64,000 bases of DNA from Henriciella sp. Lineage in GTDB: Bacteria > Pseudomonadota > Alphaproteobacteria > Caulobacterales > Hyphomonadaceae. Below are positions 27,973 to 56,194 of the stretch, piece by piece. Where the stretch lies: the NCBI GenBank assembly GCA_013214545.1, contig JABSQB010000002.1:69798-133797 (forward strand). The letters are read 5' to 3'. Numbering within the stretch: the first letter of the stretch is position 1; each line of letters starts with the position of its first letter. The position numbers and the translations under genes are program-made. The notes below the pieces were generated by a model. That model was not told the DNA's origin. It searched no databases and was given only the letters and a program-made list of their open reading frames with translations.

Positions 27973-27994
27973 TTAAAATGATATACCATTTAAA
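27973..27994. promoter_or_regulatory. GntR-1-type operator upstream of the TonB receptor
   Basis: The core AAATGATATACCATTT (27976-27991) is a nearly perfect palindrome flanked by TTA and AAA. It lies about 45-60 bp before the receptor ATG, so within its promoter. It matches the repeated island motif AAATGATATATCTTTT in its left half and shows the full dyad form most clearly. Confidence 0.7.
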
Positions 27995-28006
27995 AAGTCG
28001 CGCCAG

Positions 28007-28022
28007 ATTTGTCCGGTCATTT
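28007..28022. promoter_or_regulatory. Possible GntR-2-type half-conserved operator
   Basis: ATTTGTCCGGTCATTT agrees at 13 of 16 positions with the perfect palindrome ATTTGTCCGGACAAAT found before the CitE operon. The left ten bases are identical. Being 13 bp upstream of the GntR-1-type site, it could let both regulators act on the receptor promoter. Inference only. Confidence 0.4.
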
Positions 28023-28045
28023 GCCCGAAACCTGTGATAATTATA

Positions 28046-28480
28046 TCACTCAGCCGTGTCCGGCTCCGGCAATCCGGTCACCAGTAAGACATCAAAGTCG
28101 CCCCAACTGTTGTCGATCCGGGCGCGGCGGAGGACATCGTAGCCCTCACTGTTCCAGAAATCGCGAGCCGCCTGAGCGTTAGGCCACTTGCTGACGACAT
28201 AGCTTGGCGGGCTGTAATCCCCTTCAAGCACTTCTATGCCGGGACCGCCGCCAATCGCGATATAGTGCCCGCCAAACTCATCATAGAGCGGCGGCAGCTT
28301 TGCCGCATATCCTTCCATGAAGGCTGGACGATCGAACACTTCCCCCAGCACAATCATGTAAGCGGGCGTTTCAGAAGCCACCTGCTGACTGCTTGCCGTC
28401 TGGGGTTCAAGGCCCACGCATGCGGCAATTCCAATCCCACCTGATAGACCGAGCACCGCGCCTGCGATAAATCCTTTCAT
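28046..28480 (-). CDS. DUF1330 domain lipoprotein
   Basis: A 144-residue protein with a signal peptide ending in a lipobox-like Ile-Ala-Ala-C21, then a DUF1330 domain: AYMIVLGEVFDRPAFMEGYA, KLPPLYDEFGGHYIAIGG, EVLEGDYSPPSYVVSKWP and ARDFWNSEGYDVLRRAR. DUF1330 is a ferredoxin-like dimeric alpha-beta barrel of unknown function, often in catabolic clusters. Export is atypical. It lies upstream of the TonB receptor on the same strand and is divergent from the isochorismatase operon, sharing that operator region. An inverted repeat GTGATA-ATTA-TATCAC overlaps its stop codon. Confidence 0.82.
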   Translation of the reverse strand: MKGFIAGAVLGLSGGIGIAACVGLEPQTASSQQVASETPAYMIVLGEVFDRPAFMEGYAAKLPPLYDEFGGHYIAIGGGPGIEVLEGDYSPPSYVVSKWPNAQAARDFWNSEGYDVLRRARIDNSWGDFDVLLVTGLPEPDTAE

Positions 28481-28509
28481 GAAAACCTCCCTCTGACTGG
28501 ACTTTGAGT

Positions 28510-28525
28510 AAAAGATATATCATTT
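28510..28525. promoter_or_regulatory. GntR-1 operator between DUF1330 gene and isochorismatase operon
   Basis: AAAAGATATATCATTT, the exact reverse complement of the sites at 35763 and 56179. It sits 12 bp before ATG 28538 and 29 bp from the DUF1330 start, so a bound repressor could silence both divergent genes. Confidence 0.8.
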
Positions 28526-28537: not shown

Positions 28538-29254
28538 ATGACAAGCGGAAAAGAAATGGCAATCGATCTCTCCAAACCAACCATGGTCACCTCGGACAAA
28601 ACGGCTCGGGAAATATTTGAAGAGGTTCGCGCAAATCCTGCCCGGGCGAGATTCGGCTTTGGCGAGAAACTCGCCATCATCAATGTCGACCCACAGAAAG
28701 CCTATACGCGCCCGGATCTCTTCCCAAAAACGAGTTACATCACCGACCCGCGCCAGATGGAGCATATTGATGCCATCTCGAACGCGGCGCGAGCGAAAGG
28801 CCTGCCCGTGGTTTGGACCCACGTGGCCTATATGGACAATGCCGCCGATGCCGGCGTCTGGGGCACACGCACCGATACACCAGACAGCCTGCAAAACATC
28901 AAATACGGTTCGCAACGCCATGAATTTGATGACCGTGTAACCATCGATGAGAAGGTCGATGCGGTCTACACCAAACGCATGCCCTCCGCGTTTTTTGAAA
29001 CGCCGCTGCAGAGCTTCCTGACCTGGCACAAGGTGGATACGCTTGTGATCACAGGTGGTTCGACTTCCGGCTGCATTCGCGCCACGGCGGTGGACAGCCT
29101 CAGCCATGGCTATCGTACCATCGTCCCGATCGAGTGTGTCGCTGACAAGCATGAAAGCTATCACTTTGCCAATCTGACGGACTTGCTGATCAAGTATGCC
29201 GACGTCGTCCCAGTCAGCGAAGTACATGACGCGATCGCGGAGTATCAAGCCTGA
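28538..29254 (+). CDS. Isochorismatase-family cysteine hydrolase (amidohydrolase)
   Basis: A 238-residue hydrolase with the catalytic triad D51 (IINVDPQKAY), K146 (VYTKRMPSAFFETPL) and C179 (GGSTSGCIRATAVDSLSHGY). Pattern and length resemble the N-carbamoylsarcosine amidase/maleamate amidohydrolase branch, which splits carbamoyl or half-amide C-N bonds with release of ammonia. ATG 28538 is used; ATG 28556 is possible. It opens a seven-gene rightward run whose members overlap or nearly touch, and its stop shares one base with the next start (TGATG). Amide hydrolysis is probable; the substrate is inference. Confidence 0.86.
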   Translation: MTSGKEMAIDLSKPTMVTSDKTAREIFEEVRANPARARFGFGEKLAIINVDPQKAYTRPDLFPKTSYITDPRQMEHIDAISNAARAKGLPVVWTHVAYMDNAADAGVWGTRTDTPDSLQNIKYGSQRHEFDDRVTIDEKVDAVYTKRMPSAFFETPLQSFLTWHKVDTLVITGGSTSGCIRATAVDSLSHGYRTIVPIECVADKHESYHFANLTDLLIKYADVVPVSEVHDAIAEYQA

Positions 29255-30192
29255 TGCACGCTGATCCCAATCTCTACGATTACTGGCCTTATGAAGGCCG
29301 CCCAAAAATCGTCTGGCCGGGCGGCAAGAAGCTCGCCTTCTGGATCGCACCCAACATCGAATATTACGAGTTTCAGCCGCCGCATAATGACAAGCGCCCA
29401 GGTTGGCCGCGCGGGAATCCGGATGTGGTAGCTTACTCGCAACGCACCTGGGGCAATACTGTTGGCCATTGGCGGATGATGGACCTGTTCGACAAGTATG
29501 ACCTGCGCGGATCGATCTCGCTCTCTATTGGCCTTGTCGATCATCACCCGGAAATCATCGAGGCAGTAAACGCCCGCAACTGGGAGTTCTTCTCTCACGG
29601 CATTTACAATACGCGCTATTCCTACGGCATGGATGAGGCGCAAGAGCGCGCGGTTCTTGAAGACTCGATCCGCACGGTCGAACAAGCGACCGGCAAACGT
29701 ATTCGCGGGTATCTCGCCCCAGCTCTGACGCATACTGAGAAGACGCTCGACCTGATCGCGGAATACGACTTCTGGTACACCTGCGACCTGTTCCAGGACG
29801 ATCAGCCTCAACCGATCAAGACCAAGACCGGCAAACTGGTTTCGATGCCCTATTCCCTCGAAGTGAATGACGTCATCACCTATTCGGTGCAGGGCTGGAG
29901 CCCGCAGCGTTACACCGACCTGCTTATCCGCCACTTTGATCAATTGCTGGAAGAAGGCGAACAGAGCGGCACGGTGATGTGCGTCCCGCTGCACGCCTAT
30001 CTGGTCAGTCAACCGCATCGCCTGCGCGTGTTTGAAGAAGCGTTGAAACACATCTGCGCACACCGCGACGACGTCTGGTTCACCACCGGTGCGGAGATTG
30101 CCGAGTATTATCGGGAGTCCTATTTCGATCAGACGCTTGCAGACGTGGCCACGCGCGGTGTTGCGAGCGGCGGAACGGGGTTCGCACCATGA
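29254..30192 (+). CDS. Polysaccharide deacetylase/PuuE-type hydrolase, copy 1
   Basis: A 312-residue NodB-fold metal hydrolase of the allantoinase PuuE-like group: AFWIAPNIEYYEF near the N-terminus, an NTVGHWRMMDLFDKY helix, FFSHGIYNTRYSYGMDEAQE, and RGYLAPALTHTEKTLDLIAEY. No signal peptide, so it is cytosolic and unlikely to act on cell wall. Members of this group hydrolyse allantoin, cyclic imides or amides; these are ring-opening amidohydrolase reactions. Coupled to the isochorismatase-family gene, which would fit cleavage of a ring followed by removal of the half-amide. Two paralogues lie at 30695 and 54085. Confidence 0.82.
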   Translation: MHADPNLYDYWPYEGRPKIVWPGGKKLAFWIAPNIEYYEFQPPHNDKRPGWPRGNPDVVAYSQRTWGNTVGHWRMMDLFDKYDLRGSISLSIGLVDHHPEIIEAVNARNWEFFSHGIYNTRYSYGMDEAQERAVLEDSIRTVEQATGKRIRGYLAPALTHTEKTLDLIAEYDFWYTCDLFQDDQPQPIKTKTGKLVSMPYSLEVNDVITYSVQGWSPQRYTDLLIRHFDQLLEEGEQSGTVMCVPLHAYLVSQPHRLRVFEEALKHICAHRDDVWFTTGAEIAEYYRESYFDQTLADVATRGVASGGTGFAP

Positions 30193-30695
30193 TCCAACCT
30201 GGCTACCTCCAACGCATGGCTCGCCACAATCTGTGGCAGAACGATAGCATCTATGGCGCCGCCAATACACTAAGTGACGCCGACCGTCGGCAAGATCGCG
30301 GCAGCTTCTTTGGTTCCATCCACGCCACGCTGTCCCACATCCTGTGGGCCGATCGAATCTGGATGAGCCGCATCAGCGACTGGGACGCCCCTGGAACCGG
30401 CATTCCGGGGTCGACAGGTCTTTATCAAGACTGGGAAGCGCTCTGCGCGGACCGTCAGTCTTATGATCAGCGCTTTATCGCCTGGGCAGATCAGATGACC
30501 CAGGACCAGATTGACGGCGATCTGAACTATGTCGACTCAACAGGCGCGGCGCAGACCCGCAATCGCGCCGTGTGTTTGATGCAGGTGTTCAATCACCAGA
30601 CGCACCATCGCGGACAAGTGCACGCAATGCTCACAGCGGCTGGCGCTAAGCCTGAAGACACGGATATTCCGTTCATTCCGGAGGCGTATCTCTGA
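30189..30695 (+). CDS. DinB-family putative metal-dependent protein
   Basis: A 168-residue four-helix protein with the DinB-type metal ligands: a His in the second helix (ATLSHILWADRIW) and the pair in FNHQTHHRGQVHAMLTAAG. DinB/YfiT relatives include thiol transferases and hydrolases that need Zn or Ni; the family is often functionally unassigned. It overlaps the upstream deacetylase-like gene by 4 bp and shares one base with the next, so it is made together with them. Role in the pathway unknown. Confidence 0.85.
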   Translation: MIQPGYLQRMARHNLWQNDSIYGAANTLSDADRRQDRGSFFGSIHATLSHILWADRIWMSRISDWDAPGTGIPGSTGLYQDWEALCADRQSYDQRFIAWADQMTQDQIDGDLNYVDSTGAAQTRNRAVCLMQVFNHQTHHRGQVHAMLTAAGAKPEDTDIPFIPEAYL

Positions 30696-31606
30696 TGCCT
30701 CTTCCCGACGAATATCTGGTCTACCCGCACCGCAAACATGGGTTCGACAATCCCCACTATGATTGGGATCCAGCAGACCGCCGCGATCCCATCGGGTTGA
30801 AGGACGGAACCAAATCGATCGCGACCATCATCGTACCGGTCGAGTTCTTTCCGCTCAATCCACCAGCAGTGCCGTTCAAACATCCTGGCGCGATGAAGAC
30901 GCCCTATCCTGATTTGCGCCACTTCACGGTGCGCGACTATGGCAACCGCGTCGGGATTTTCCGGCTGTTGCGGGAGCTCAACAGGCGTAACCTCAAAGCC
31001 ACCTTCGCGATCAATGCAGAGGTCGCTGACCGATACCCGCCGCTGATTGCAGAGATCCAGTCCTCCCATCACGAGATCGCGGCCCACGGCGTCTCAACCG
31101 TGCATATTCATCATGATGGTCTCAACGAAGATGAAGAACGCGCGCTGATCGAAACCGCACGAAAGGCCTTCCCGGCGGCGACGAGTTGGATGAGCCCGGC
31201 GCGCAATGAGAGCTATCGAACGCTGGACTTGCTCGCAGAAGCTGGCTTCACAGCCTGCCTGGACTGGGAAGCCGATCAACGCCCGCTTGCGTTCAAAACA
31301 AGCTCGAACCCGATTTGGGCTTTGCCGCTTTATGGCGAACTTGGGGATTTCAAGCTGCTGATCGATCGCTCCCAATCAGAGGAAGAATGGGCGGCGCAAA
31401 TCATCGAGACGGCGCGCTATCATGTCGACCAGTACGAAAGCGAAGGCGCCAGCGCTTTCGCGTTCACCATGACCCCCTATGTGCTCGGCCAACCTTTCCG
31501 GATCAAAGCCGTTCGGCAGGTCCTGGACGCACTGATGGCGATGGAAGGTCTTGCCGTCCGCTCCTCAGCCGAGAGTTGCGCCGCTTTCCGGGAGGCTCTG
31601 TCATGA
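30695..31606 (+). CDS. Polysaccharide deacetylase/PuuE-type hydrolase, copy 2
   Basis: A 303-residue cytosolic NodB-fold protein. It shows ATIIVPVEFFPLN, RDYGNRVGIFRLLRELNRR, ATFAINAEVADRYPPLIAEI, HEIAAHGVSTVHIHHDGLNE and SWMSPARNESYRTLDLLAEAG. The canonical first-strand Asp pair (for example Thr-Phe-Asp-Asp) is replaced by Val-Glu-Phe-Phe, as in the PuuE/imide hydrolase branch. It differs strongly from copy 1, so both were probably kept for different substrates or form a hetero-oligomer. Overlaps the nitrilase-like gene by 4 bp. Confidence 0.8.
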   Translation: MPLPDEYLVYPHRKHGFDNPHYDWDPADRRDPIGLKDGTKSIATIIVPVEFFPLNPPAVPFKHPGAMKTPYPDLRHFTVRDYGNRVGIFRLLRELNRRNLKATFAINAEVADRYPPLIAEIQSSHHEIAAHGVSTVHIHHDGLNEDEERALIETARKAFPAATSWMSPARNESYRTLDLLAEAGFTACLDWEADQRPLAFKTSSNPIWALPLYGELGDFKLLIDRSQSEEEWAAQIIETARYHVDQYESEGASAFAFTMTPYVLGQPFRIKAVRQVLDALMAMEGLAVRSSAESCAAFREALS

Positions 31607-32718
31607 ACCGCCGCTCATTTCTTTTCAGCGCTGGTGCCGCAGCCGTCGCTGCCCCGGCCCTTGCTCAAGGATCATCGCCCATGCGCTACACCGCCCTCGC
31701 TCTTCAGACGGTATGTGATGCCGTCAATCAGGACAGTTCGATTGAAGACGGCCATGCCCGCATGGATCGCGCGATCAATCGCATCCGCGGCCAGATCGGT
31801 TCGGCCAAGGGCTTCCTGAAAGGGTTCAATGGTTATGACGTAAAACTGGTTGTTCTGCCGGAATATTGGATGACCGGATTTCCACTCGGCGAGACCAGAG
31901 AGGAATGGCAGGACAAGGCCGCAATCCCCATGGACGGTGCGTTCCCTGACAAGCTCGCAGGCCTGGCACAGACATTCGGCATCTATCTCTGCTCCAATCA
32001 CTATGAAACAGATCCGAATTTCCCGGATCTCTATTTCCAATCCAACGTGATTTACGGCCCCAATGGCGACGTGGTGCTGCGCTATCGCCGGATGATTTCG
32101 CTCTACACGCCGAGCCCGTATGACGTCTGGGACAAATATCTCGACGTCTATGGAAGCGACGCGGTCTTCGCGGTCGCGGACACCGAAATCGGCACGCTGG
32201 GTTCCATCGCAAGCGAGGAAATCCTGTATCCAGAGATCGCGCGGGTTCAAGCCTTCAAAGGGGCCGAGATTTTCTGCCATCCAACCAGCGAGGTCGGTGC
32301 CCCGACCCTCACGCCTAAGCACATCACCAAGAAAGCCCGCGCCATCGAAAACATCGCCTATGTCGTATCTGCGAACAGCGCCGAGATCATCGGTACGCCG
32401 GTTCCAGCCGCCTCGACCGATGGCATGTCGATCGTGCTGGATTGGTATGGACGCTCGCTCGCCGAAGCCAATCAGGGTGAGACGATCAACGCAAACGCCG
32501 TACTAGATATCGGAGCGTTACGCGATACCCGCCGCAAGACTGGAATGACAAACACGCTGTCGCGTCTGCCGAATACAGCGTTTGCGGGCGCTTATGCGCA
32601 AGCCAATCACGCGCCAGCCAATCGCACGCCAGATGCCCAAATGATCGAACGCAAAGACGCCATCGCCCAACAACAAGCGGTCATTGATCGCCTGGTTGAG
32701 AGCGGTGTGTTGAAATAG
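31603..32718 (+). CDS. Tat-exported nitrilase-superfamily protein lacking the catalytic Cys and Lys
   Basis: The start at 31603 overlaps the previous stop (ATGA) and gives 371 residues with a Tat signal: Asn-Arg-Arg-Ser-Phe-Leu-Phe, a hydrophobic stretch and Ala-Leu-Ala-Gln (cleavage near 21). The body is a carbon-nitrogen hydrolase fold. Glu is present (VVLPEYWMTGFP, E87), but the Lys site reads YRRM (R163) and the nucleophile region reads IGTLGSIASEEILYPE with no Cys (A203/S204). The usual Glu-Lys-Cys catalysis is therefore not possible as read. It may be a binding protein, a partner subunit or use a different chemistry. The last 60 residues hold a distinctive Ala/Gln-rich tail. Confidence 0.82.
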   Translation: MNRRSFLFSAGAAAVAAPALAQGSSPMRYTALALQTVCDAVNQDSSIEDGHARMDRAINRIRGQIGSAKGFLKGFNGYDVKLVVLPEYWMTGFPLGETREEWQDKAAIPMDGAFPDKLAGLAQTFGIYLCSNHYETDPNFPDLYFQSNVIYGPNGDVVLRYRRMISLYTPSPYDVWDKYLDVYGSDAVFAVADTEIGTLGSIASEEILYPEIARVQAFKGAEIFCHPTSEVGAPTLTPKHITKKARAIENIAYVVSANSAEIIGTPVPAASTDGMSIVLDWYGRSLAEANQGETINANAVLDIGALRDTRRKTGMTNTLSRLPNTAFAGAYAQANHAPANRTPDAQMIERKDAIAQQQAVIDRLVESGVLK

Positions 32719-32729
32719 GAGCCAAGCCC

Positions 32730-33152
32730 ATGACTGATTTTCCGCAAACACCGCCCTACGTGCCGCGCCTGGATAAAACCTGTTATCTGGTTGTTTGCCG
32801 TGACGGCGCAGACAGTGCCGAACCGCGTGCCACCCATCTCAAAGGGCATCTCGATCATGTTGAGAAGTACTGGACGCGTTATGTCACCGCTGGTCCCATT
32901 CGCGAACCGGGCGGTGAGGCGCTGGTTGGATCTGTTTTCCTTGTACTAGCCGATGATCTGGAAGACGCGAAAGCGCTGATGTCTGGCGATCCTTACATTA
33001 CCAGCGGTATGTATGAGACCATCACTTACAATGAGTTCTCGAACTCGGTCGGTCAGTACGTTGGCGGCAAGATCTGGGAAAGCGCAGAGGCGATCGCCCA
33101 CCGCGCCGCTGGCGGCCCAACCAATGACCTTTCAAAAGGCGTCGACGCATGA
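32730..33152 (+). CDS. YCII-domain protein
   Basis: A 140-residue protein with a YciI-type ferredoxin-like fold: CYLVVCRDGADSAEPR, HLDHVEKYWTRYVTAGPIRE, SVFLVLADDLEDAKALMSGDPY, all family hallmarks including the His in the HLxH region and the Gly-Pro turn. Such proteins are dehydratase/isomerase-like or small-ligand-binding partners in catabolic clusters. It starts 11 bp after the nitrilase-like gene and overlaps the next gene by 4 bp. Specific role unknown. Confidence 0.8.
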   Translation: MTDFPQTPPYVPRLDKTCYLVVCRDGADSAEPRATHLKGHLDHVEKYWTRYVTAGPIREPGGEALVGSVFLVLADDLEDAKALMSGDPYITSGMYETITYNEFSNSVGQYVGGKIWESAEAIAHRAAGGPTNDLSKGVDA

Positions 33153-33904
33153 CCGACCGTATGAAACACCGCCGAATCCGCGGCCGTATTCGCTACACGT
33201 CAAAGAAGCCGGAAATGATGGGTCAGGTTCGCGGCGATGAGATCTTCAACATCACACACCATTCGGACGGCAAGATGACGGTGCGGGCGCACTGTGAGAT
33301 TCACGAACCAGATCCAACCGTGATGCGCGACATCGTCTATTCGACCGATGAGAACTTCAATCCGATGGATTGTCATGTACGTCTGACGGTCGGCGATGAA
33401 TTCATGGGGTCCGGCTGGTTCAAGTTCAATCTTGATGAGAACCGCGCTGGAACGATTGAGTGTGAAAGCTATGGCCCATCGATCGGACGCTTGTCTCAAC
33501 GCGTGGACACCGAAGGGTCATTCGATGGATTTGGTACGCACCCGATCATTGGCGATGCGCAAATGTGCCGGGTGATTGACCGCTCCGGCGGTCCGATGCG
33601 TAGAAATGTGCGGGTGTTCCTGCCGTCGCCAGATCATCGCGGTGCAACACCGCCGCTGATTTCAGAAGTGAATATCGGGCTCGAATATGTGGGCGATGAG
33701 ACGGTGACGGTTGAAGCCGGCACCTTTGATTGCTTCCACTTCCGCTATGTCGACGATGAAGGTCCCGGCATGGGCGGAACGCAGCATCCGTCTTACGACA
33801 TGTGGGTCACCAAAGACGATTTCATCTTCGTCCAGGGCGGCGTCGGCGGCTATATGGCAACCTGGTACGAGCTCATCGAACTCGATCATCCGACGGTCGG
33901 CTAG
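33149..33904 (+). CDS. Unrecognised conserved-looking protein of the catabolic island
   Basis: I do not recognise this 251-residue protein. It has no signal peptide or membrane helix, is basic at the N-terminus (MTDRMKHRRIRGRIRYTSKK), and is rich in beta strands. Motifs worth searching include NITHHSDGKMTVRAHCEI, the Val-Glu-Ala-Gly-Thr-Phe-Asp-Cys-Phe-His-Phe-Arg strand and the C-terminal FVQGGVGGYMATWYELIEL. The pattern hints at a lipocalin- or DUF3108-like barrel, but that is a guess. It is the last gene of the rightward GntR-1-controlled operon, and its TAG overlaps the stop of the convergent lipoprotein gene (CTAG). Confidence 0.7.
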   Translation: MTDRMKHRRIRGRIRYTSKKPEMMGQVRGDEIFNITHHSDGKMTVRAHCEIHEPDPTVMRDIVYSTDENFNPMDCHVRLTVGDEFMGSGWFKFNLDENRAGTIECESYGPSIGRLSQRVDTEGSFDGFGTHPIIGDAQMCRVIDRSGGPMRRNVRVFLPSPDHRGATPPLISEVNIGLEYVGDETVTVEAGTFDCFHFRYVDDEGPGMGGTQHPSYDMWVTKDDFIFVQGGVGGYMATWYELIELDHPTVG

Positions 33905-34770
33905 TTCCCAAATCCAGACGCCTGATCACCGGCCTGAATGGCTTCGATCTCTTCCAGGCTCATTGGCGGCGTCAGCCATTCCGGCTTGTTTTCTTGCGCC
34001 CAGATCAGCAGTTGAGTCGGAAACTCGTCCTGTGACTCCACACGATGCGACAGCAGGTGATAGATCGCCTGCTCACCGCCCGCCCAGGCTGGGAGTGCGC
34101 CGTAGCGTTGCCAGCTCATCTGATGGGGTTCTTCGACGCTGCCTTCCGGATTGATGAAGAAGTCATAATTCTCCCACGCTTCATATTGTGCGCCATTGGG
34201 GAGCGGGAAATCCAGAAATACAGCGGCCGTGAAGGCCCAGGTATCGCCAATCTGGCGGGCTGCGATGCCGTCTTCTGAAATGATCTTTTGAACGCGGTCA
34301 CCGACACCCTGGGTGACGTCACCATAGATACGTCCGTTTTCATAACGGTACTCGATCATCTGGTACGGGTAAGCGATCGGCACCACGGGCTGACCATTAT
34401 ATTCGGTCAGGACTTCACCCGTCTCTGCGTCGGTGTACGCGAAGGTCTTGCGCGTGAGATGGATGACTTTCTCATTCGGGTCATCCGGCCAAATCACGGT
34501 CGAGCTGTCAAAGCCGATCATCCCGAACAGTTTCTCGCCGGAAGGGTACGCATAAATGCCGCCATCGGAGACCCAGTGTACCGGCTCGCCAGTTCCTGCG
34601 CGGGCATCCACCCAGGCTTTCAGGACATCTGGCTCCGCAGCCATGACTGCAACGTCCGCTTCATTCGCATCGGCGACAGCCGTTTCTGTATCCGGCGCTT
34701 CTGCAACAGACGTGGCACAGGCGGTGAAAGCGAGGATCGATGCAGTAATCAGGGCAAGGTTGCGGACCAT
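33901..34770 (-). CDS. DUF1838-like lipoprotein
   Basis: The start at 34770 has GGAG about 7 bases upstream and gives 289 residues with a lipoprotein signal (MVRNLALITASILAFTAC, C18) and an Ala/Asp/Glu-rich linker to about 40. The mature domain has WVSDGGIYAYPSGEKLFGMIG, YNGQPVVPIAYPYQMIEYRY, TWAFTAAVFLDFPLPNG and MSWQRYGALPAWAGG. This resembles DUF1838 proteins, frequent in alphaproteobacteria that degrade complex organics; function unknown. It is single, leftward, with a GntR-1 operator 18 bp upstream, so likely co-regulated with the catabolic operons. Confidence 0.75.
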   Translation of the reverse strand: MVRNLALITASILAFTACATSVAEAPDTETAVADANEADVAVMAAEPDVLKAWVDARAGTGEPVHWVSDGGIYAYPSGEKLFGMIGFDSSTVIWPDDPNEKVIHLTRKTFAYTDAETGEVLTEYNGQPVVPIAYPYQMIEYRYENGRIYGDVTQGVGDRVQKIISEDGIAARQIGDTWAFTAAVFLDFPLPNGAQYEAWENYDFFINPEGSVEEPHQMSWQRYGALPAWAGGEQAIYHLLSHRVESQDEFPTQLLIWAQENKPEWLTPPMSLEEIEAIQAGDQASGFGN

Positions 34771-34787
34771 GAAAATCTCCAAAATTC

Positions 34788-34803
34788 ATTTGATATATCT
34801 TTA
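34788..34803. promoter_or_regulatory. GntR-1-type operator before the DUF1838-like gene and gntR-1
   Basis: ATTTGATATATCTTTA keeps the central TGATATATCTTT of the island motif but differs at both ends. It lies 18 bp upstream of the lipoprotein ATG and about 130 bp from the regulator gene, so it might also support autoregulation. Confidence 0.6.
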
Positions 34804-35757: not shown

Positions 35758-35783
35758 GATTTAAATGATATATCTTTTAAATC
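35758..35783. promoter_or_regulatory. GntR-1 operator, extended 26-bp palindrome
   Basis: Around the core AAATGATATATCTTTT (35763-35778) the symmetry extends outward to GATTTAAA on the left and TTTAAATC on the right. Only one base pair of the dyad is mismatched. It ends 13 bp before the TTG start of the membrane protein, next to the AAGGAGGAGG ribosome site, and should control the FAD oxidase/ALDH/crotonase operon. Confidence 0.85.
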
Positions 35784-36459: not shown

Positions 36460-36473
36460 GAGACTCTCACCCC

Positions 36474-47595: not shown

Positions 47596-48032
47596 GATAC
47601 GCGGATTTCATCGCAAAGCGTGCGGCGATAGAGCTGGCCGTCCTTGAACCAGTGCCATGTGCGGGCGCGATGTTTACCGCCCTCGCCCATGATGATCACC
47701 TCAACGAAGTGTGCCCCCGGTTCATCTTTGCGTTGCAGGTTCAGCAGCACCACGCCGTCAGCCGTTTCCCAGCTTTTGCCAATGAAGGTCGGTGTATCAA
47801 ACCAGAGATGGTCGCCGCGATCGACCCCGTCGAAGCCGGCATTGGTGACGCTGCCATCCGGATGGGTCAGCCGGATGGTCTGGCGATAAAACACCTCGCC
47901 ATCCTCTGGGAATTCACACACAACGTGTGACTGGATCAGCTCTTCTTCCTGCGCTTGCAGGTCAACATGGCGGTACGTGCCCTCCCAGATGCCGAGATGG
48001 GCGCGGTGGGCAGGAAACTTGAGACCGGTCAT
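47592..48032 (-). CDS. Small beta-rich protein, lipocalin/DUF3598-like
   Basis: A 146-residue cytosolic protein, mostly beta strands. GIWEGTYRHVDLQAQ near the N-terminus resembles the Gly-x-Trp start of calycin/DUF3598 barrels; the end carries ARTWHWFKDGQLYRRTLCDE. It is the last gene of the leftward CitE-to-CaiB operon, overlapping the CaiB gene at 48029 by 4 bp. Binding of a hydrophobic ligand or intermediate is plausible from the fold guess only. Catalytic residues are not recognisable. Confidence 0.68.
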   Translation of the reverse strand: MTGLKFPAHRAHLGIWEGTYRHVDLQAQEEELIQSHVVCEFPEDGEVFYRQTIRLTHPDGSVTNAGFDGVDRGDHLWFDTPTFIGKSWETADGVVLLNLQRKDEPGAHFVEVIIMGEGGKHRARTWHWFKDGQLYRRTLCDEIRVS

Positions 48033-49195: not shown

Positions 49196-50346
49196 ACAGT
49201 TTCCTTCTTGGCGAGCAGGTCTGCATTCTGTTCGCCCATTTTAGGCGCGCGGGAAAGAGTTGGTCGCTCACCATTCACGCGGAACGGCGAGCTCAGCGTC
49301 CGAAGCCCGTCGGAAGATGCAGGATGGTCAACCTGAGTCGTCATTTCGACACTCGCGACATAGTCACTGTCAAGGGCCTCCCCGATATCCAGAACCGGCG
49401 CAAAAGGAACTTGCCCGCCGAGGATGTCCATCCACTCAGCGGTGGTCCTGGCCATCATCACCTGGTCGACAGCGTCGCTTAACGCTGTGAGGTTTTCGCG
49501 GCGCGCTGGAATAGTCGCGAACCTTGGGTCCTCGCCGAGATCAGCATCGGTTAGCTGACACCATAGGGTCCAAAACTTCGGCGTCTGGCACATCAACAGC
49601 CCCCAGCCATCCTTCGTTTTGACCAATTGGCTCGGCGCGATTGACGGGTGTGCGCCGCGCGGCAGGCGCCCTGTCACGTGTTGCTGATTAAGGTACCAGG
49701 TGGCGGGATAAGAGAGCTGATGCAGCGCCGTGTCGAACAGGCAAACATCCAGATCACTCCCTACGCCCGTTCGACTGGCGCCCAGAATGCCAGCGAGAAT
49801 GGCGGTCGCAAGGTGACTTCCCGTGTGAAAGTCGACCATGGACAGGCCGAATCGGACGGGTGGCCCATCGGGCTCGCCCGTCATTGTCATGAAACCAGCT
49901 TCAGCTTGCATCAGATAGTCGTATCCCGGCCAGGCGGCGCGTTCAGACTTGCGGCCATAGGCGGAGAGGTGGGCGCAGACGATTTTTGGGTTGATCGCCT
50001 TTAGCGCCTCATAGTTGAGCCCTAGCTTGTCGGGTTGATCTCCGCGCAGATTGTTCGCAACCGCGTCAGCGGATTTGACCAGCGCTTCAAATTGCGCGCG
50101 TCCGTCTGGCGATTTCAGATCCAGCGTGACCGATTTCTTGCCGAGCGAAAACGTCTGAAAGAACTCGCTATCGCCTTCACCCAGCATATAAGGCCCGACT
50201 GAGCGCGACACGTCTCCGCCCCGGCCAGGATCCTCGATTTTGATGACTTCTGCGCCGAGGTCAGCCAGCAACATCGTGCCATATGGGCCAGCGCCATACT
50301 GCTCCACGGATAAGATCCGGACGCCTTTCAGTGGCAAGTCGGACAT
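49192..50346 (-). CDS. CaiB/BaiF (family III) CoA-transferase, copy 2
   Basis: A 384-residue family III CoA-transferase: LKGVRILSVEQYGAGPYGTM, ADLGAEVIKIEDPGRGGD, catalytic D143 in WPGYDYLMQAEAGFM, and PVRFGLSMVDFHTGSHLATA. It is distinct from copy 1 (different N-terminal loop and C-terminus). Its stop overlaps the copy 1 start by 4 bp, and its start shares one base with the acyl-CoA dehydrogenase stop, so all are coupled. Fits activation of a dicarboxylic acid such as itaconate or mesaconate using succinyl-CoA, by analogy with pseudomonad loci. Confidence 0.9.
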   Translation of the reverse strand: MSDLPLKGVRILSVEQYGAGPYGTMLLADLGAEVIKIEDPGRGGDVSRSVGPYMLGEGDSEFFQTFSLGKKSVTLDLKSPDGRAQFEALVKSADAVANNLRGDQPDKLGLNYEALKAINPKIVCAHLSAYGRKSERAAWPGYDYLMQAEAGFMTMTGEPDGPPVRFGLSMVDFHTGSHLATAILAGILGASRTGVGSDLDVCLFDTALHQLSYPATWYLNQQHVTGRLPRGAHPSIAPSQLVKTKDGWGLLMCQTPKFWTLWCQLTDADLGEDPRFATIPARRENLTALSDAVDQVMMARTTAEWMDILGGQVPFAPVLDIGEALDSDYVASVEMTTQVDHPASSDGLRTLSSPFRVNGERPTLSRAPKMGEQNADLLAKKETV

Positions 50347-51545
50347 CAGATCGGGTTCCGTTTTACCAGCTGTTTGGAGATGATGATGCGTTGCATTTCA
50401 TTCGTGCCTTCGCCGATGCACATCAGTGGCGCATCACGGTAAAGCCGCTCAATGACATACTCTTTTGAATAGCCATACCCGCCATGGATTCGCATCGCTT
50501 CGGTGGCCACTTCCACGGCGGTTTCTGAAGCAAAATACTTCGCCATCCCGGCTTCCATGTCGACGCGCGCTCCGGTGTCATAGGCGCGAGCGGCGTCTTC
50601 AACGAGCAGCTCCGCGGCGCGGGTCTTGGCCCCCATCTCGCCAAGCTTCAGCTGGATCGCCTGATGTTCGCAAATAGGCTTACCCATTGTCTGGCGGGTC
50701 TGCGCGTAGGCAATGCTCTCATTCAGCGCCCGTCGAGCAATGCCGACGGAACGCGCAGCGACATTGATACGCCCGATCTCAAGGCCGCCTGTCGCCATGA
50801 AGAAGCCCTGACCTTCTTCACCGCCGACGAGGCAAAGCTCTGCATCGCACTCATAACCCGTGTAGATCAGCTCGCCGCTATCAATGCCTTTGTAGCCAAG
50901 CTTTTGCAGCTTGTTGCCATTAGTAACACCCGGCAGGTCTTCCATTGTTTCGGGGTTTTTGGTCTGCGTGATCAGCATCGACATGCCCTTATAGCGCGGC
51001 TGCGCGCTCGGGTCGGTTTTGCACAGCAGAGCCACACACTGGCCTTCAATCGAATTCGAAATCCAGGTCTTCGCGCCTTCGACCACATACTTGTCGCCGA
51101 CGCGTGTGGCCTTGGTCGTCAGCGCCTGGAGGTCCGTCCCAGCATTTGGCTCTGTGAGCGCAAGGCCACCGCGAATTTCGCCGGTAGCGAACTTCGGCAG
51201 CCAATACTCTTTTTGCTTATCGGTCCCGAATTTCTGGACAATCAATGCCATCATCAGGTGCGAATTGAAAATCCCCGACAGACTCATCCACTCTTCTGCG
51301 ATCAGAGTCACAATCTTCGAGTAGAGCGACGCCGACAGTCCGAGACCGCCATACTCAGGATCGATCAGCGCACCGAACAGGCCGAGTTCCTTCATATCCT
51401 CGACCAGATCCATCGGGTATTCGTTCGCGTGCTCAAGCTCCATTGCGACCGGGCGGACTTTTTGCTCCAGCCACTTCTCGATCGCATCCAGCATGAGGCG
51501 TTCTTCTTCAGCCGCCTCGCTCGTCAAAACTGCGGTGTCTGCCAT
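50346..51545 (-). CDS. Acyl-CoA dehydrogenase
   Basis: A 399-residue flavoenzyme with the usual three-domain order: N-terminal helices, the middle beta domain with GGLALTEPNAGTDLQ and KTWISNS, and a C-terminal helical domain with RIHGGYGYSKEY and the catalytic Glu in MCIGEGTNEMQR. It introduces a 2,3-double bond into an acyl-CoA, feeding electrons to ETF. In this operon it would act on a saturated branched (di)carboxylyl-CoA before hydration by the adjacent MaoC enzyme. Chain-length preference not deducible. Confidence 0.93.
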   Translation of the reverse strand: MADTAVLTSEAAEEERLMLDAIEKWLEQKVRPVAMELEHANEYPMDLVEDMKELGLFGALIDPEYGGLGLSASLYSKIVTLIAEEWMSLSGIFNSHLMMALIVQKFGTDKQKEYWLPKFATGEIRGGLALTEPNAGTDLQALTTKATRVGDKYVVEGAKTWISNSIEGQCVALLCKTDPSAQPRYKGMSMLITQTKNPETMEDLPGVTNGNKLQKLGYKGIDSGELIYTGYECDAELCLVGGEEGQGFFMATGGLEIGRINVAARSVGIARRALNESIAYAQTRQTMGKPICEHQAIQLKLGEMGAKTRAAELLVEDAARAYDTGARVDMEAGMAKYFASETAVEVATEAMRIHGGYGYSKEYVIERLYRDAPLMCIGEGTNEMQRIIISKQLVKRNPI

Positions 51546-51554
51546 TTCGGCCTC

Positions 51555-52076
51555 CTAGTAATTCCCGACCTTGTCCTCGACGGCCTGACCGCGGGACGGG
51601 ATCAACATGTTGCGTTTGAACGTGCACACCATCGTGCCATCCTGATTGAAACCGCGCGTCACAATGGTCACGATGCCTTGGCCCGGACGCGACTTGCTCT
51701 CGCGTTTTCCGAGCACTTCACTTTCGGCGTAAAGCGTGTCTCCAGCGAACACTGGCGCGGTAAATTTCACTTCATCCATACCGAGATTGGCGATGGCTTT
51801 CTGAGAGCAGTCCGTGACACTCATCCCGATCAGGAGCGCCAATGTGTACGGAGAAACGACAAGGTTCTTCTTGAACTCAGATGCGGCCGCAAACTCGGCA
51901 TCAAAGTGCATCGGGTGGGTGTTCAGTGTTAGCAGCGTAAAGGCATGGTTGTCATATTCGGTCACCGTCTTGCCCGGACGGTGCTCATAAATATCGCCCT
52001 CCTTGAAATCCTCAAAATAGCGGCCAAAGGTTTCGCGATAGCGATTTGGGCCCACCTCTTTCCAATTCTGAACCAT
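51555..52076 (-). CDS. MaoC-family enoyl-CoA hydratase (mesaconyl/itaconyl-CoA hydratase-like)
   Basis: A 173-residue hot-dog fold hydratase: YFEDFKEGDIYEHRPGKTVT, then the active-site Asp/His segment YDNHAFTLLTLNTHPMHFDA, VSPYTLALLIGMSV and LGMDEVKFTAPVFAGDTLYA. The Asn-Thr-His-Pro-x-His-Phe-Asp pattern is characteristic of the single-domain hydratases that act on mesaconyl-, itaconyl- or 2-methylfumaryl-type CoA esters. It is followed 2 bp before by the CitE-type lyase gene, giving a hydratase/lyase pair. Confidence 0.87.
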   Translation of the reverse strand: MVQNWKEVGPNRYRETFGRYFEDFKEGDIYEHRPGKTVTEYDNHAFTLLTLNTHPMHFDAEFAAASEFKKNLVVSPYTLALLIGMSVTDCSQKAIANLGMDEVKFTAPVFAGDTLYAESEVLGKRESKSRPGQGIVTIVTRGFNQDGTMVCTFKRNMLIPSRGQAVEDKVGNY

Positions 52077-52078
52077 GT

Positions 52079-52903
52079 CTATCCTCTCTCTTCGCCCGCC
52101 TGGGCGAGGGTTCGTTCAGCCGCCAGAATGATCGGACGGTCTACCAGTTTTCCATTGTGCAGCACGGCGCCGCCTTTTGACGCGTCCAAGGCCTTAATGA
52201 TTGCTCGCGCATCCAGAATCTCCGCTGGGCTGGGCGTGAACACCGTATTGACGGTCTCGACTTGCCCCGGGTGGATGCAAGCGCGGCCAGCAAAGCCCAT
52301 CGCTTTGGACTTTCGTGTCTGCTCGCTGAGCCCAGCGTCATCCTTCACATCGAGATATGGGACGTCATAGGCAGGTACGCCCGCAGCGCCGCAGGCGCCG
52401 GCGATCGTGCCTCTGGCAACGATCATCGCATCCCAGTCGGATAAGTCCGCGCTGATGCTTGCGCTGTAGTCTGCGCCACCGAACAAAACGCCCGCGTTTG
52501 ACTGTTTCGCAATGTCGAATGCCCGGCGAAGACCGCGCCCGCTCTCGATAACAGCTATCAAATCCGAGCCGTGCCCCAGAGCTTCACCGACGATTTCCAT
52601 ATCAACGCCTGTTTCCGCTTTGGGAACCATGACAAAATCTGGCGAGCAGCCGGATTGCGCGAGGGCGGCAATGTCAGCGCAGCCATCTGAAGTGCGCGGA
52701 CTGTTGATCCGGATCCCCGCCCGGACACCTCCGCGATGCCCGAGCCAACCAAGCGCATCGGCGCGGGCTTCCGTCTTCTGCTCGGGCAGCACCGCGTCTT
52801 CTAGATCGATGATAATCGTATCCGCGCCGGCCGCAGCCGCCTTGTCGAAACGGTCCGGGCGAGCGCCGGGGACGAAGAGAAGAGATTTATAGGTGAGCGT
52901 CAT
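52079..52903 (-). CDS. HpcH/HpaI-CitE family CoA lyase (malyl/citramalyl-CoA lyase-like)
   Basis: A 274-residue TIM-barrel lyase. Motifs include KSLLFVPGARPDRFDKAAAA, TIIIDLEDAVLPEQKTEAR (acidic Mg ligand), RINSPRT, FVMVPKAETG, VIESGRGLRRA and LFGGADYSASI. CitE-like proteins split citramalyl-CoA, malyl-CoA or 3-methylmalyl-CoA to acetyl- or propionyl-CoA plus a 2-oxo acid. First gene of a leftward six-gene operon; its promoter region carries the perfect GntR-2 palindrome. Confidence 0.9.
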   Translation of the reverse strand: MTLTYKSLLFVPGARPDRFDKAAAAGADTIIIDLEDAVLPEQKTEARADALGWLGHRGGVRAGIRINSPRTSDGCADIAALAQSGCSPDFVMVPKAETGVDMEIVGEALGHGSDLIAVIESGRGLRRAFDIAKQSNAGVLFGGADYSASISADLSDWDAMIVARGTIAGACGAAGVPAYDVPYLDVKDDAGLSEQTRKSKAMGFAGRACIHPGQVETVNTVFTPSPAEILDARAIIKALDASKGGAVLHNGKLVDRPIILAAERTLAQAGEERG

Positions 52904-52915
52904 CAGGTATCCGAG

Positions 52916-52931
52916 ATTTGTCCGGACAAAT
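52916..52931. promoter_or_regulatory. GntR-2 operator, perfect 16-bp palindrome
   Basis: ATTTGTCCGGACAAAT is fully self-complementary. It lies 13-28 bp upstream of the CitE-type gene start, in a 49-bp gap before the stop of the AhpD-like gene at 52953. It marks an internal promoter that makes the CitE operon independently controllable. Confidence 0.85.
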
Positions 52932-52952
52932 TAGGGCGAACCTATTCTGAGG

Positions 52953-53528
52953 TCAAATAGACTTTTCAACTGGCGCAGGAAATGGACAAAAATCCTCACG
53001 CTCAACCAGATCAAAGGCAAAAAGGAACTTGGCGATTCCTGTCAGCATCCCGCCGATCAGTCCAAGTTCGATGATTTGCGCAGGCGTGTAGTGATCGCCC
53101 AGCGATCGATACAGAGTTTCACTAAGATTTCCGGCTTCGTTGGTGAGTTTCAGCTCATCCGCCAATTGAGCGACCGCAACCAGAGCGGGGCGTAAGGCCG
53201 AAAAGTCATCGCTGAAAAGCGCATCTATCTCGGCATCGCTTAGCCCGGCCTCGAGAGCGCTTACTCGATTGCCTTGATTACAGAACTTGCAGCCATGCTG
53301 CGCTGACAGTCTTAGACGCAAGACTTCCAAAGCTTCGGCCGGAACCCGTCCGGATTTGAACACCTGCCCATAGAAATCCTGGATATACCAACGCAGCAAA
53401 TCCGGATTGTTCGCCATCACCTCAAAGAATGTCGCGTCGCCTCGCAATGCCAAGGAAGCTTGCTGCATATCCTTGATATCATCTGGGAGCTCGACAGCGG
53501 GCACGCGGGGCAGTCGAGGGTTCGGCAT
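52953..53528 (-). CDS. AhpD-like (carboxymuconolactone decarboxylase fold) protein, copy 1
   Basis: A 191-residue protein; ATG 53528 shares one base with the stop of the next gene upstream, and a GTG one codon earlier is a poorer start. The CxxC motif (C80-K-F-C83 in AQHGCKFCNQGNR) and the helical pattern identify the AhpD/CMD fold. It lacks the usual His a few residues after the CxxC. Peroxide reduction or protein disulfide chemistry are possible roles. Last gene of the leftward run that starts at 56147. Confidence 0.82.
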   Translation of the reverse strand: MPNPRLPRVPAVELPDDIKDMQQASLALRGDATFFEVMANNPDLLRWYIQDFYGQVFKSGRVPAEALEVLRLRLSAQHGCKFCNQGNRVSALEAGLSDAEIDALFSDDFSALRPALVAVAQLADELKLTNEAGNLSETLYRSLGDHYTPAQIIELGLIGGMLTGIAKFLFAFDLVEREDFCPFPAPVEKSI

Positions 53529-54088
53529 CACTCAGTCAGTCCCGCAACAGAGGCCAGCGGAACCGGCTCAAGCGCCGTTCCAAGCGTCGTATTCCAGCGA
53601 TTGAGGAACCCGAACATGGCAATGACCGAGACAATTTCTACGATTTCATCTTCCGAAAAGTGCAAGCGCAACCGATCGAAATCTTCATCAGTCGTTTCGT
53701 TAGGGACCACGCCCGCCTTCATGGCGAGATTGATGGCAGCCCGTTCTGGGTCGGAGAACAGCGGACTGTCTTCGAAACTCCAGACGGCGTCGATCTTTTC
53801 CTTCGCCACGCCCTGCTCTCGTGCACCGTGCGCCGCGTGGGCTGAGCAGTAGAAACAGCCTGCGGCTTTGCTCGCGGCTTCCCCAACTAAACGTTTGAGC
53901 CCGCTATCCACCTGGCCCGGGCCGTAGACCGCAGCCACCAAGCCCCACATCGCCTTCGTGAGACCTGGATTGCGCGCCATGACAAGCGCGTCATTCGGCA
54001 CAAACCCCATCAGGTTTTCGGCATTCGTGATCATTCGGCGCGTTTCAGCATCTACCTCGCCGAGCGAAAGCGGGGCCAGCCGGGTCAT
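53528..54088 (-). CDS. AhpD-like peroxidase-related protein, copy 2
   Basis: A 186-residue member with the more canonical active site KAAGCFYCSAHAAHGA (C78, C81, H84/H87) and an Asn-Pro preceding the first helices (MARNPGLTKAMWGLV). AhpD-type proteins reduce peroxides through the CxxC pair and a neighbouring His and Glu. Its coupling to copy 1 suggests a heteromeric assembly. The stop of copy 2 shares a base with the start of copy 1 (TGATG), and its start overlaps the deacetylase-like gene by 4 bp. Confidence 0.85.
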   Translation of the reverse strand: MTRLAPLSLGEVDAETRRMITNAENLMGFVPNDALVMARNPGLTKAMWGLVAAVYGPGQVDSGLKRLVGEAASKAAGCFYCSAHAAHGAREQGVAKEKIDAVWSFEDSPLFSDPERAAINLAMKAGVVPNETTDEDFDRLRLHFSEDEIVEIVSVIAMFGFLNRWNTTLGTALEPVPLASVAGLTE

Positions 54089-54987
54089 CTGCTGCCAGGC
54101 GCGACATTCGCCGCAAAGTGCTGAGCAATCTCTTCGCGGGTCGCGATCCAGACATCACTGCTGGCGCGGACATGGTCGAGGAAATGCTGAAATGCATCGA
54201 TCCGGCCCGGCCGCCCAATGATCCGCAAGTGAAGGCCGAGTGACATCATGCGCGCGCCTTCCTCCTTCGCCTCCTGATACAGCCAGTTGAACGTGTTCTT
54301 CGCATATTGAAGCCACATATCCGGCGTGAAACTGGGGCTAAGCCAGAACTTCATATCATTGGAATCGATCGCATAAGGCAGGATGACCATGGGTTCGGTC
54401 GAGCCGTTCTTCATTTCGACATCCGCCCAGTAAGGGAAGTCGTCGGAGTAATCGTCCATATGATAGAGATAACCCTGCTCTTTCAGGATGCGGCGCGTGA
54501 TATCGGTGTGCAAGTAACGCGAGAGCCAGCCCACCGGACGCCGCCCACAGGTCTCGGTAATCGAGTCTGTACCTGTTTTGATGAAGGCGGACTCTTCTTC
54601 CTCATCCATAAAGGCCGTAAACGCCCATTTGTGGCCGTGATTGCAGGGCTCATCTCCGCGCGCGACAATTGCCTCAGCCAGCCAGGGCGCTTTCTGCAGC
54701 GCCTGACCGCAGACGGTCCAGGTGGCATTGATCTTGGCTTTGTCGAGAATTTTGAGAATGCGCGGCGCTCCGCGATTGATGCCGTATTGGTAATTGCTCT
54801 CATTGCCATGGATGCGGATCGGCTTGCCCGGAACAGCGCCCAATTCATCGACCGGTTCTGGGCGCTTATCGCCTTCATCGATGCGGCGCTCTGCACCCTC
54901 TTCGACGTTAACGACAATCGACAGCGCAAGCTTGCCGCCATTCGGCCACTTGAAGCCTTTCGGCGCAGGATCAGGTGGCAGCGTCAT
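54085..54987 (-). CDS. Polysaccharide deacetylase/PuuE-type hydrolase, copy 3
   Basis: A 300-residue cytosolic NodB-fold protein: ALSIVVNVEEGAERRIDEGD, YQYGINRGAPRILKILDKAK, EPCNHGHKWAFTAFMDEEEE, GRRPVGWLSRYLHTDITRRI and SLGLHLRIIGRPGRIDAFQH. The Asn-x-Glu-Glu first-strand motif and the NHGHKW segment match the PuuE/cyclic-imide-hydrolase branch. Third such enzyme in the island. It is coupled (TAATG) to the SDR gene upstream. Confidence 0.83.
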   Translation of the reverse strand: MTLPPDPAPKGFKWPNGGKLALSIVVNVEEGAERRIDEGDKRPEPVDELGAVPGKPIRIHGNESNYQYGINRGAPRILKILDKAKINATWTVCGQALQKAPWLAEAIVARGDEPCNHGHKWAFTAFMDEEEESAFIKTGTDSITETCGRRPVGWLSRYLHTDITRRILKEQGYLYHMDDYSDDFPYWADVEMKNGSTEPMVILPYAIDSNDMKFWLSPSFTPDMWLQYAKNTFNWLYQEAKEEGARMMSLGLHLRIIGRPGRIDAFQHFLDHVRASSDVWIATREEIAQHFAANVAPGSR

Positions 54988-55823
54988 TAGTGAGGTTCCT
55001 CCCCGCCTGAAACGTTCATGCTCTCAGCCGTGATATAGTTTGCTTCATCTGAGCAGAGGAACGCCACCGCATTGGCTGTATCCTCTGGCAAGCCAGGACG
55101 TCCCATTGGTATCCGAGCCGCCATCGCTTCCAAATACTCATCCACAGATGCGGCTCCGACGACTTTGGAGAAATATTCATTCTGCCAAGCGCCGAGGCCT
55201 GTCGTGACATGGTTTGGGCAGACATTGTTGACAGTGATCTTATGCTCGCCGAGCTCGACCGCAGCCGAACGCGCCAGCCCGACCAGGCCATGCTTCGATG
55301 AGGTATAGGCCTGCGCGTGAGGAAAGCCGGACTTCGCAGCCTGCGATGCAATATTGATAATGCGGCCGCCCTTGCCTTGTTTGACCATGGTTTCAGCGGC
55401 GGCTTTGACGCCGAAGAATGCCCCGGTGAGATTAACATCGATCACCGCGCGCCAGTCCTCTTCGGTCACCTCCAGCAGCGGCTTCATGATGTATCCAATG
55501 CCGGCATTATTGACCCAGATGTCGAGACCGCCATGTGCGTCGATCGCATGTTGCGCCAGACTGCGGACATCTTCGAGTGATCGGACATCACAGACTTTCG
55601 TCGACGACTGCACTCCCAAAGCACGCATATCCGCTGCGATCGCCTCCATCTCGTCGGTGGAACCGATATGTTCAGCGCCTGTCGCTTCATCTCGCGGTGC
55701 GCCAATGTCAGAAATGACGATATTGGCACCATCGTCCGCCAGACGTTTGGCGATGGCTTCACCCAGCCCTTTGCGACGGCCCGATCCGGTGATGACAGCC
55801 GTCTTGCCTGTAAACCTGCCCAT
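54987..55823 (-). CDS. Short-chain dehydrogenase/reductase
   Basis: A 278-residue classical SDR: cofactor motif TGSGRRKGLGEA (12-23), NNAG (105-108), catalytic S160, Y173 and K177 (AYTSSKHG), and the NVCPNHVTTGLG region after it. The Arg-rich nucleotide loop RRKGLG at the cofactor motif would suit NADP, but this is not certain. It oxidises or reduces a hydroxy/keto group. Located after the RedY/HapK-like gene and before the deacetylase-like gene in a leftward, presumably GntR-1-controlled operon. Confidence 0.9.
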   Translation of the reverse strand: MGRFTGKTAVITGSGRRKGLGEAIAKRLADDGANIVISDIGAPRDEATGAEHIGSTDEMEAIAADMRALGVQSSTKVCDVRSLEDVRSLAQHAIDAHGGLDIWVNNAGIGYIMKPLLEVTEEDWRAVIDVNLTGAFFGVKAAAETMVKQGKGGRIINIASQAAKSGFPHAQAYTSSKHGLVGLARSAAVELGEHKITVNNVCPNHVTTGLGAWQNEYFSKVVGAASVDEYLEAMAARIPMGRPGLPEDTANAVAFLCSDEANYITAESMNVSGGEEPH

Positions 55824-55832
55824 TTTTGCCCC

Positions 55833-56147
55833 CTAGCCGAGCTTATCAGTCATGATGAAGACCAGATCATCGGCCATGGCCTGAAACTCGCCAGCAATCG
55901 CTTGCATCGTTTCGGTTGAGACCTCGCCGCCAAACGTCTCCATATCATTAACGTCAATCGTCTCGATATAGGCATAAGGCGGTTTGTCATCGGAGCCGAG
56001 CAATCCCGTCGACTTGAACACCGCAAACTCATCAACCGATTGCAGGCCATTTACGGTTGGAATGTCCTTGGATTTTGCCCAGGCTTCATAGTCGGCGACG
56101 CTGACGCCGGGCTTCAAATTGAACAGTGCGACAATCTTGGTACTCAT
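55833..56147 (-). CDS. RedY/HapK-like small protein
   Basis: A 104-residue protein starting at ATG 56147 with GGGAAGG upstream; a longer reading crosses the operator and promoter. The pattern STKIVALFNLKPGVSVADYE, EAWAKSKDIPTVNGLQSVDE and AYIETIDVNDMETF matches RedY/HapK-like proteins of ferredoxin-like fold, first named in prodigiosin-type clusters but widespread in catabolic operons. No catalytic residue is obvious. It heads the leftward operon under the operator at 56179. Confidence 0.78.
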   Translation of the reverse strand: MSTKIVALFNLKPGVSVADYEAWAKSKDIPTVNGLQSVDEFAVFKSTGLLGSDDKPPYAYIETIDVNDMETFGGEVSTETMQAIAGEFQAMADDLVFIMTDKLG

Positions 56148-56178
56148 ATCCGGAACCTTCCCTATGGCTTCTTTCGTC

Positions 56179-56194
56179 AAATGATATATCTTTT
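56179..56194. promoter_or_regulatory. GntR-1 operator between RedY-like and methyltransferase genes
   Basis: AAATGATATATCTTTT, identical to the sites at 35763 and (inverted) 28510. It lies in a 121-bp divergent gap, 31 bp from the RedY-like start and 74 bp from the methyltransferase start, so both operons are probably regulated together. It is more than 21 kb from the regulator gene. Confidence 0.82.

Follow-up and report, generated by a model that had tools for sequence, protein, structure and literature searches.

A palindromic operator predicted for a HutC-subfamily GntR regulator recurs before scattered catabolic-looking operons of a Henriciella genome

The window analysed here is a 64,000-nucleotide stretch of a Henriciella sp. 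genome (C51:69798-133797; the genome comprises 3.57 Mb in 138 contigs). It carries an island of catabolic-looking genes, a set of near-identical palindromes and, at 34935, the gene for a GntR-family regulator, called R1 below, whose operators the palindromes are proposed to be. AAATGATATATCTTTT occurs exactly at 35763 and 56179 (plus strand) and at 28510 (minus strand), and looser palindromes lie at 27976 (AAATGATATACCATTT) and 34788 (ATTTGATATATCTTTA, three mismatches). All five were found where an earlier note, made from this sequence, had placed them. The regulator and its predicted operators are as follows (PWM, position weight matrix; ALDH, aldehyde dehydrogenase; ECH, enoyl-CoA hydratase).

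27976..27991, unstranded: predicted R1 operator AAATGATATACCATTT, 46 bp before the TonB receptor start; TonB-VOC operon (minus)
28510..28525, unstranded: predicted R1 operator AAAAGATATATCATTT, between the DUF1330 gene (minus) and the isochorismatase operon (plus)
34788..34803, unstranded: weaker predicted R1 operator ATTTGATATATCTTTA, between the DUF1838 gene (minus) and R1 (plus); PWM score 18.3
34935..35735, plus: R1, HutC-subfamily GntR regulator, 266 aa, proposed binder of all sites
35763..35778, unstranded: predicted R1 operator AAATGATATATCTTTT, before the membrane protein-FAD oxidase-ALDH-ECH operon
56179..56194, unstranded: predicted R1 operator AAATGATATATCTTTT, between HapK (minus, 11-gene operon extending to 47592) and the methyltransferase gene (plus)

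Scanning the window with up to three mismatches returned nine strand matches at these five places, against a mean of 0.12 and a maximum of 1 in 100 shuffles. The PWM found exactly the five palindromes at or above 18 bits (next best, 4.9 bits), scores that are not independent because the five belong to its training set of 15 own-genome sites. The same matrix gave two matches at or above 18 bits in 7 Mb of Markov background. As the earlier note had claimed, every copy sits in a promoter gap: for genes as called, all five fall between genes, with a start codon 5-46 bp away on at least one side. Several overlap mechanically derived open reading frames (ORFs), which we take as spurious or over-long; in one such case (55833-56279) the start was placed at 56147. 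The note had also extended the palindrome at 35763 to a 26-bp dyad (35758-35783). This dyad exists, with 24 of 26 positions symmetric, but over 108 sites the flanks outside the 16 bp carry at most 0.25 bit per position. With the sites informative only over 16 bp, a true operator length of 26 bp is rejected; the extension is incidental.

The window sites adjoin these units:

24651-25745, minus: VOC protein, downstream of the TonB receptor (Pfam Glyoxalase, 22.5 bits)
25749..27929, minus: TonB-dependent receptor (read from translation)
28046..28480, minus: DUF1330 protein (PF07045) with a lipoprotein-like start
28538..33904, plus: operon for isochorismatase-family hydrolase, PuuE-like PDA1, DinB-like, PuuE-like PDA2, nitrilase-like, EthD-like and DUF3108-like proteins (DinB-like and EthD-like read from translation; DUF3108 at 24.7 bits, under the cut-off of 26)
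33901..34782, minus: DUF1838 protein (PF08894, 30.3 bits)
35797..40263, plus: operon for a small membrane protein (no Pfam match), FAD-binding oxidase, ALDH and ECH (the last two read from translation)
47592..56147, minus: operon of 11 nearly contiguous genes on one strand, for HapK, SDR, PuuE-like PDA3, two CMD proteins, RipC-like lyase, RipB-like hydratase, acyl-CoA dehydrogenase, two CaiB proteins and a 146-aa protein (one CMD and both CaiB read from translation)
56269..57869, plus: methyltransferase-domain protein and 120-aa protein

R1 combines an N-terminal GntR winged helix-turn-helix (PF00392, 73.6 bits, cut-off 27) with a C-terminal UTRA domain (PF07702, residues 108-247, 119 bits, cut-off 23.8). 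This is the architecture of the HutC subfamily (YvoA/NagR, DasR, PhnF, HutC), whose operators are likewise palindromes near target-gene starts; the best solved-structure matches are 2ra5, YvoA (4u0v/2wv0) and DasR. R1 falls below the NCBIfam equivalog cut-offs for HutC (111.8 of 220) and PhnF (126.2 of 156.8), which sets it apart from both, and below those for PhnR (81.1 of 296.75) and TreR (70.2 of 211.95). Unlike HutC-subfamily systems, its predicted regulon is a large and physically dispersed target set. In PMC4494728 the usual operator of the subfamily is given, with exceptions listed, as NyGTMTAKACNy; relative to it the R1 motif, G[A/G]TATA[T/C]C, keeps the G/C four bases from the centre and replaces the neighbouring T by A or G. 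The closest named relatives of R1 among the best 80 of 142 homologues come from Hyphomonas and Henriciella metagenome-assembled genomes (MAGs). R1 is also present in two culturable relatives, Hyphomonas polymorpha and Hirschia maritima. One MAG labelled uncultured Acidobacteria (L096) has an R1 76% identical to that of the window; it seems to belong to the window's own family, and its label to be wrong. Other GntR genes above the cut-off lie on C99, C65 and C4; their neighbours, by our own reading, resemble uronate-, phosphonate- and histidine-pathway genes, which counts in favour of R1.

Across the whole genome we counted 15 strong sites, six on C51 (five of them in the window), six on C81 and one each on C106, C2 and C85, leaving out three weaker one-mismatch places (C47, C63, C103). 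The reversed pattern gave one or two strand matches. Ten of the 15 are plainly intergenic; the other five (C81:6757, C81:17633, C51:167786 and the sites on C2 and C85) overlap a neighbouring gene if its longest ORF is taken, a reading that we again regard as spurious or over-long. The site at C51:167786 is 58 and 85 bp away from its likely flanking starts. Confinement of the motif to the island is rejected, ten of the 15 sites being outside the window, but most sites outside the island do adjoin catabolic-looking genes. The targets found beyond the window, several of them paralogous to window targets, include:

CaiB/HMG-CoA-lyase-like divergon, with two sites
DUF1838 protein
TonB receptor
amine oxidase/major facilitator superfamily divergon
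DUF1330 gene divergent from a VOC-like protein (VOC by sequence reading; no Pfam match)
membrane protein, a 26% paralogue of the window's membrane protein
LeuCD-like pair on C85

Memb2 (C106_8186) is the membrane-protein target. The genome has three aconitase-family genes, of which that for the LeuC-like protein is one. The genes of C85 and C81 adjoin in the one-contig genome G012. The regulon proposed in the earlier note, one regulator acting on five units across 28 kb, extends to at least four other contigs and does not take in the whole island. The PWM finds no R1 site for the central amidase/CoA-ligase/PrpD and CoA-transferase/R2 units in this genome; in the PrpD2/CoA-transferase gap near 45553-45615 the best score is -1.9. 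R2, which the note did not mention, is a second regulator:

46882..47595, plus: R2, HutC-subfamily regulator, sharing an operon with a CoA-transferase-like gene and divergent from two PrpD-like genes

The distribution of R1 and the motif was compared across 105 genomes from the same family, an R1 orthologue being a protein of at least 65% identity. The exact motif AAATGATATATCWTTT occurs in 17 genomes (the reversed motif in none), R1 in 17, and both together in 16 (Fisher 9e-17, uncorrected for kinship). G036, which has R1 and lacks the exact motif, carries a one-mismatch site before its Memb2 gene. Regulator and site co-occur and part together, with G002 as the sole exception. At the isochorismatase locus a site of at least 18 bits is present in 16 of 16 genomes with an R1 of at least 57% and in none of seven whose R1 homologue is at most 46% or missing; G002 has it too, and three R1 genomes (G016, G022, G036) yielded no isochorismatase match. 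Among these loci, that of G003 (L237) scores 21.9 bits and that of G040 (L249) at best 0.7. Memb2 was found in 15 genomes, all of which have R1 and a site starting 34-46 bp upstream of the match (adjoining masked bases in G087). In genomes without a close R1, a two-mismatch scan gave a background of 0-8 strand matches (three in G019, eight in G032, none in G055). The R1-like proteins of G080, G081 and G085 (44-46%) have the related AATTGGTATATCAATA 211-224 bp downstream, so that "no R1" there means no close R1. The motif, its places, its co-occurrence with R1 and its conservation are direct results of these computations. An AT-rich dyad repeated at several places might also be an element of another kind, such as a recombination site, an RNA element or a site for a global factor; yet its presence tracks R1 through the 105 genomes, the sites adjoin recurring gene families and the reversed controls are near zero, which leaves such an origin hardly credible.

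R2, alone or jointly with R1, could in principle bind the same sites, since it lies in the same island and is found, at E 1e-30, in 15 genomes, 14 of which are among the 17 with the motif. We ascribe this co-occurrence to genes travelling together. The genomes in which the two regulators part speak against R2 and led us to reject it as binder of the palindromes. Five (G003, G087, G036, G016, G047) have R1 (57-66%) and no R2 match at E 1e-30 and keep the sites, as variants in G016 and G047, whereas G029, with R2 (53%) and an R1 homologue of only 37%, has just two matches (one and two mismatches), both core-broken. The recognition-helix residues differ as well (VSRITVKRA in R1, VSRHTARDA in R2), and the R2 divergon has no R1-type site here, although G033, G041 and G087 have one. 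Binding by R2 is accordingly a very remote prospect: it is probably not the binder of these sites and is probably a local regulator of the CoA-transferase/PrpD divergon, for which our analysis produced no candidate R2 operator. Since the central units have no R1 site here and have one in those three relatives, R2 may have taken over these units in the present genome. As a separate observation, the fragmented G003 carries its sites on six small contigs (C24, C50, C70, C77, C83, C243; L191-L196), with 17 sites of at least 11 bits and no R2 match.

Stretches from 11 relatives, a subset of the R1 or motif genomes chosen for motif matches or R1, hold 93 sites of at least 18 bits against one for the reversed control; given that choice, the difference speaks for the specificity of the pattern and is not an unbiased density. 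Seventy of the 93 adjoin a gene with a homologue in the target set of the Henriciella genome. Recurring targets, by number of the 11 genomes, are isochorismatase (seven), HapK, LeuC-like and TonB (six each), and VOC-like, DUF1330, methyltransferase and CaiB (five each). Individual arrangements recur too: a site adjoins both the HapK and the methyltransferase genes in G002, G012, G033, G041 and G078, precedes the TonB orthologue of G012, and lies 28-46 bp past the end of the R1 gene in Hirschia, Parvularcula and IP29b, as it does here. Counterparts of the 34788 site stand at -133 to -147 in L091-L094, with a PWM score of 9.0 in L094.

We also scored the best 80 of 142 R1 homologue loci, 27 of the 80 being annotated in the neighbourhood view (stop codons in homologues are written as X). 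A site of at least 14 bits lies upstream of 23 and only downstream of 12 more; 45 have neither, and the reversed PWM gave 0 of 80. Homologues of at least 57% identity (15 loci) account for seven upstream and six downstream-only sites, and those of at most 45% (21 loci) for 14 upstream, 74-160 bp before the gene, and three only downstream. The predicted operator is kept near the regulator in two separate groups, and its upstream places in the distant group point to autoregulation. (The R1 tree, midpoint-rooted and with several long branches, served only to display the spread of sites.) Five of ten annotated distant loci with an upstream site hold the same enzymes. Homologues of window, C81, C106 and C2 genes are united in one stretch in L162 and L164 (Kordiimonadaceae), and C81 homologues stand with those of C85 in L161 and L169 (Emcibacter) and likewise in L158. 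This suggests that the scattered units, which look like one catabolic route, form one pathway.

The choice of the 34935 product as regulator, made in the earlier note, is supported by the 16 genomes shared between 17 with the motif and 17 with R1, by the discordant genomes, by the missing isochorismatase site where no close R1 exists and by the sites upstream of distant homologues. Its single dispersed switch is very likely right, and larger than one island. From these patterns we infer binding and repression by R1, a ligand and a substrate. It is highly probable that R1 is an autoregulated repressor of at least ten scattered transcription units, the 11-gene RipB/RipC-like operon included. R1 would bind the 16-bp palindrome, whose consensus is AAA[TA]G[A/g]TATA[T/c]C[AT]TTT, near the translation starts of at least ten units over the chromosome, its own divergon among them, where the weaker site at 34788 suggests feedback control of R1. 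The short distance of the window sites from start codons implies that a bound dimer would block initiation, which makes a repressor likeliest; proteins of the HutC subfamily are mostly repressors. Both points tell against R1 being an activator or a dual regulator, an unlikely alternative that would fit the outcome of the sigma-70 scans, in which none of the operators had a promoter-like site. As a repressor, R1 would come off the operators once a pathway intermediate occupies its UTRA domain.

Besides those promoter scans and the frequency of R2 among motif genomes, other results weigh against this scheme. G002 has four exact sites and no R1 orthologue was found in it (assembly 88% complete, 290 contigs), and an assembly gap could account for the missing R2 of G003 (86% complete). 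Among the relatives read, none keeps the C2 target and one keeps the C51:167786 target. Homologues of 46-52% identity (44 loci, mostly Caulobacterales and relatives) show only two upstream and three downstream sites, most Caulobacterales-type homologues having half-site-like variants only. Finally, the other five annotated distant loci with an upstream site (L155, L156, L160, L165, L166) do not clearly adjoin the same enzymes.

The predicted route would lead from TonB uptake to the isochorismatase-family and PuuE-like hydrolases, acting on C-N bonds, to FAD oxidase and ALDH, and further through the LeuCD-like hydratase and CaiB CoA-transferases to cleavage by the RipB/RipC-like and HMG-CoA-lyase-like proteins. 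Part of it resembles the RipABC itaconate module: the MaoC protein at 51555 matches RipB/Ich best (239.2 bits, cut-off 340) and the CitE protein at 52079 RipC (227.3 bits, cut-off 375), both below the curated NCBIfam cut-offs, and the island has a CoA-transferase-like protein (45616). Unlike in RipABC, these genes stand among genes for PuuE-like, CMD and CaiB proteins, so that a branched dicarboxylate other than itaconate may be the substrate; the 11-gene operon is a candidate route for such compounds. PrpD2 is near IDS-epimerase and IRG1 structures. The isochorismatase-family hydrolase recalls the NicF-like amidases of the maleamate step in nicotinate-type pathways (3ot4/3uao, E 5e-19, aligned SGC motif; 3uao we take to be NicF) but scores closer to N-carbamoylsarcosine amidohydrolase. 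The C85 LeuCD-like pair, additional to two other aconitase-family genes, resembles the LeuCD-type hydratases of the dimethylmaleate step in such pathways, and LeuCD relatives hydrate maleates. Together these likenesses suggest that the ring of a cyclic amide or imide is opened and a branched dicarboxylate broken down. Counting against that reading, cut-offs for ordinary enzymes are passed by the C85 proteins (isopropylmalate dehydratase subfamilies, 624 of 531 and 235 of 167) and by the HMG-CoA-lyase-like protein (its own subfamily, 288 of 246); the C85 LeuC-like protein is below the leuC equivalog cut-off (454 of 560). Imide chemistry as the identity of the substrate is a guess, and a route for substituted cyclic imides, for example methyl-maleimides from oxidised chlorophyll, haem or bilins, is a doubtful proposition. 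Such a route would comprise a PuuE-like imidase, an isochorismatase-family maleamate amidase, a LeuCD-type maleate hydratase, CaiB CoA-transfer and RipC- or HMG-CoA-lyase-like cleavage of a tertiary alcohol, with R1 sensing an intermediate.

Among the literature matches listed, no title or abstract opening names this regulon or route. "Hyphomonas" is absent from the main texts of the GntR regulon reconstructions PMC4494728 and PMC5343134, whose supplements may list it unnamed; the main text of the latter treats HutC as histidine utilisation. Pairing of regulator and operator by sequence comparison alone ties genes on five contigs, which would hardly be grouped otherwise, into one predicted pathway, which spans DUF1330, DUF1838, HapK-like and small membrane proteins, many of them domains of unknown function. 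With the motif, the pathway can be listed in any R1-bearing genome, and the substrate could be assayed directly through induction of these operons.

Brevundimonas-type R1 homologues (L125, L129, L132-L135, L140) have AGTTGGTATAGGAATA 52-67 bp upstream, and half-site variants (for example AAATGATATAGACTTA) lie 36-170 bp downstream of most of them, suggesting that the operator has shifted in this clade.

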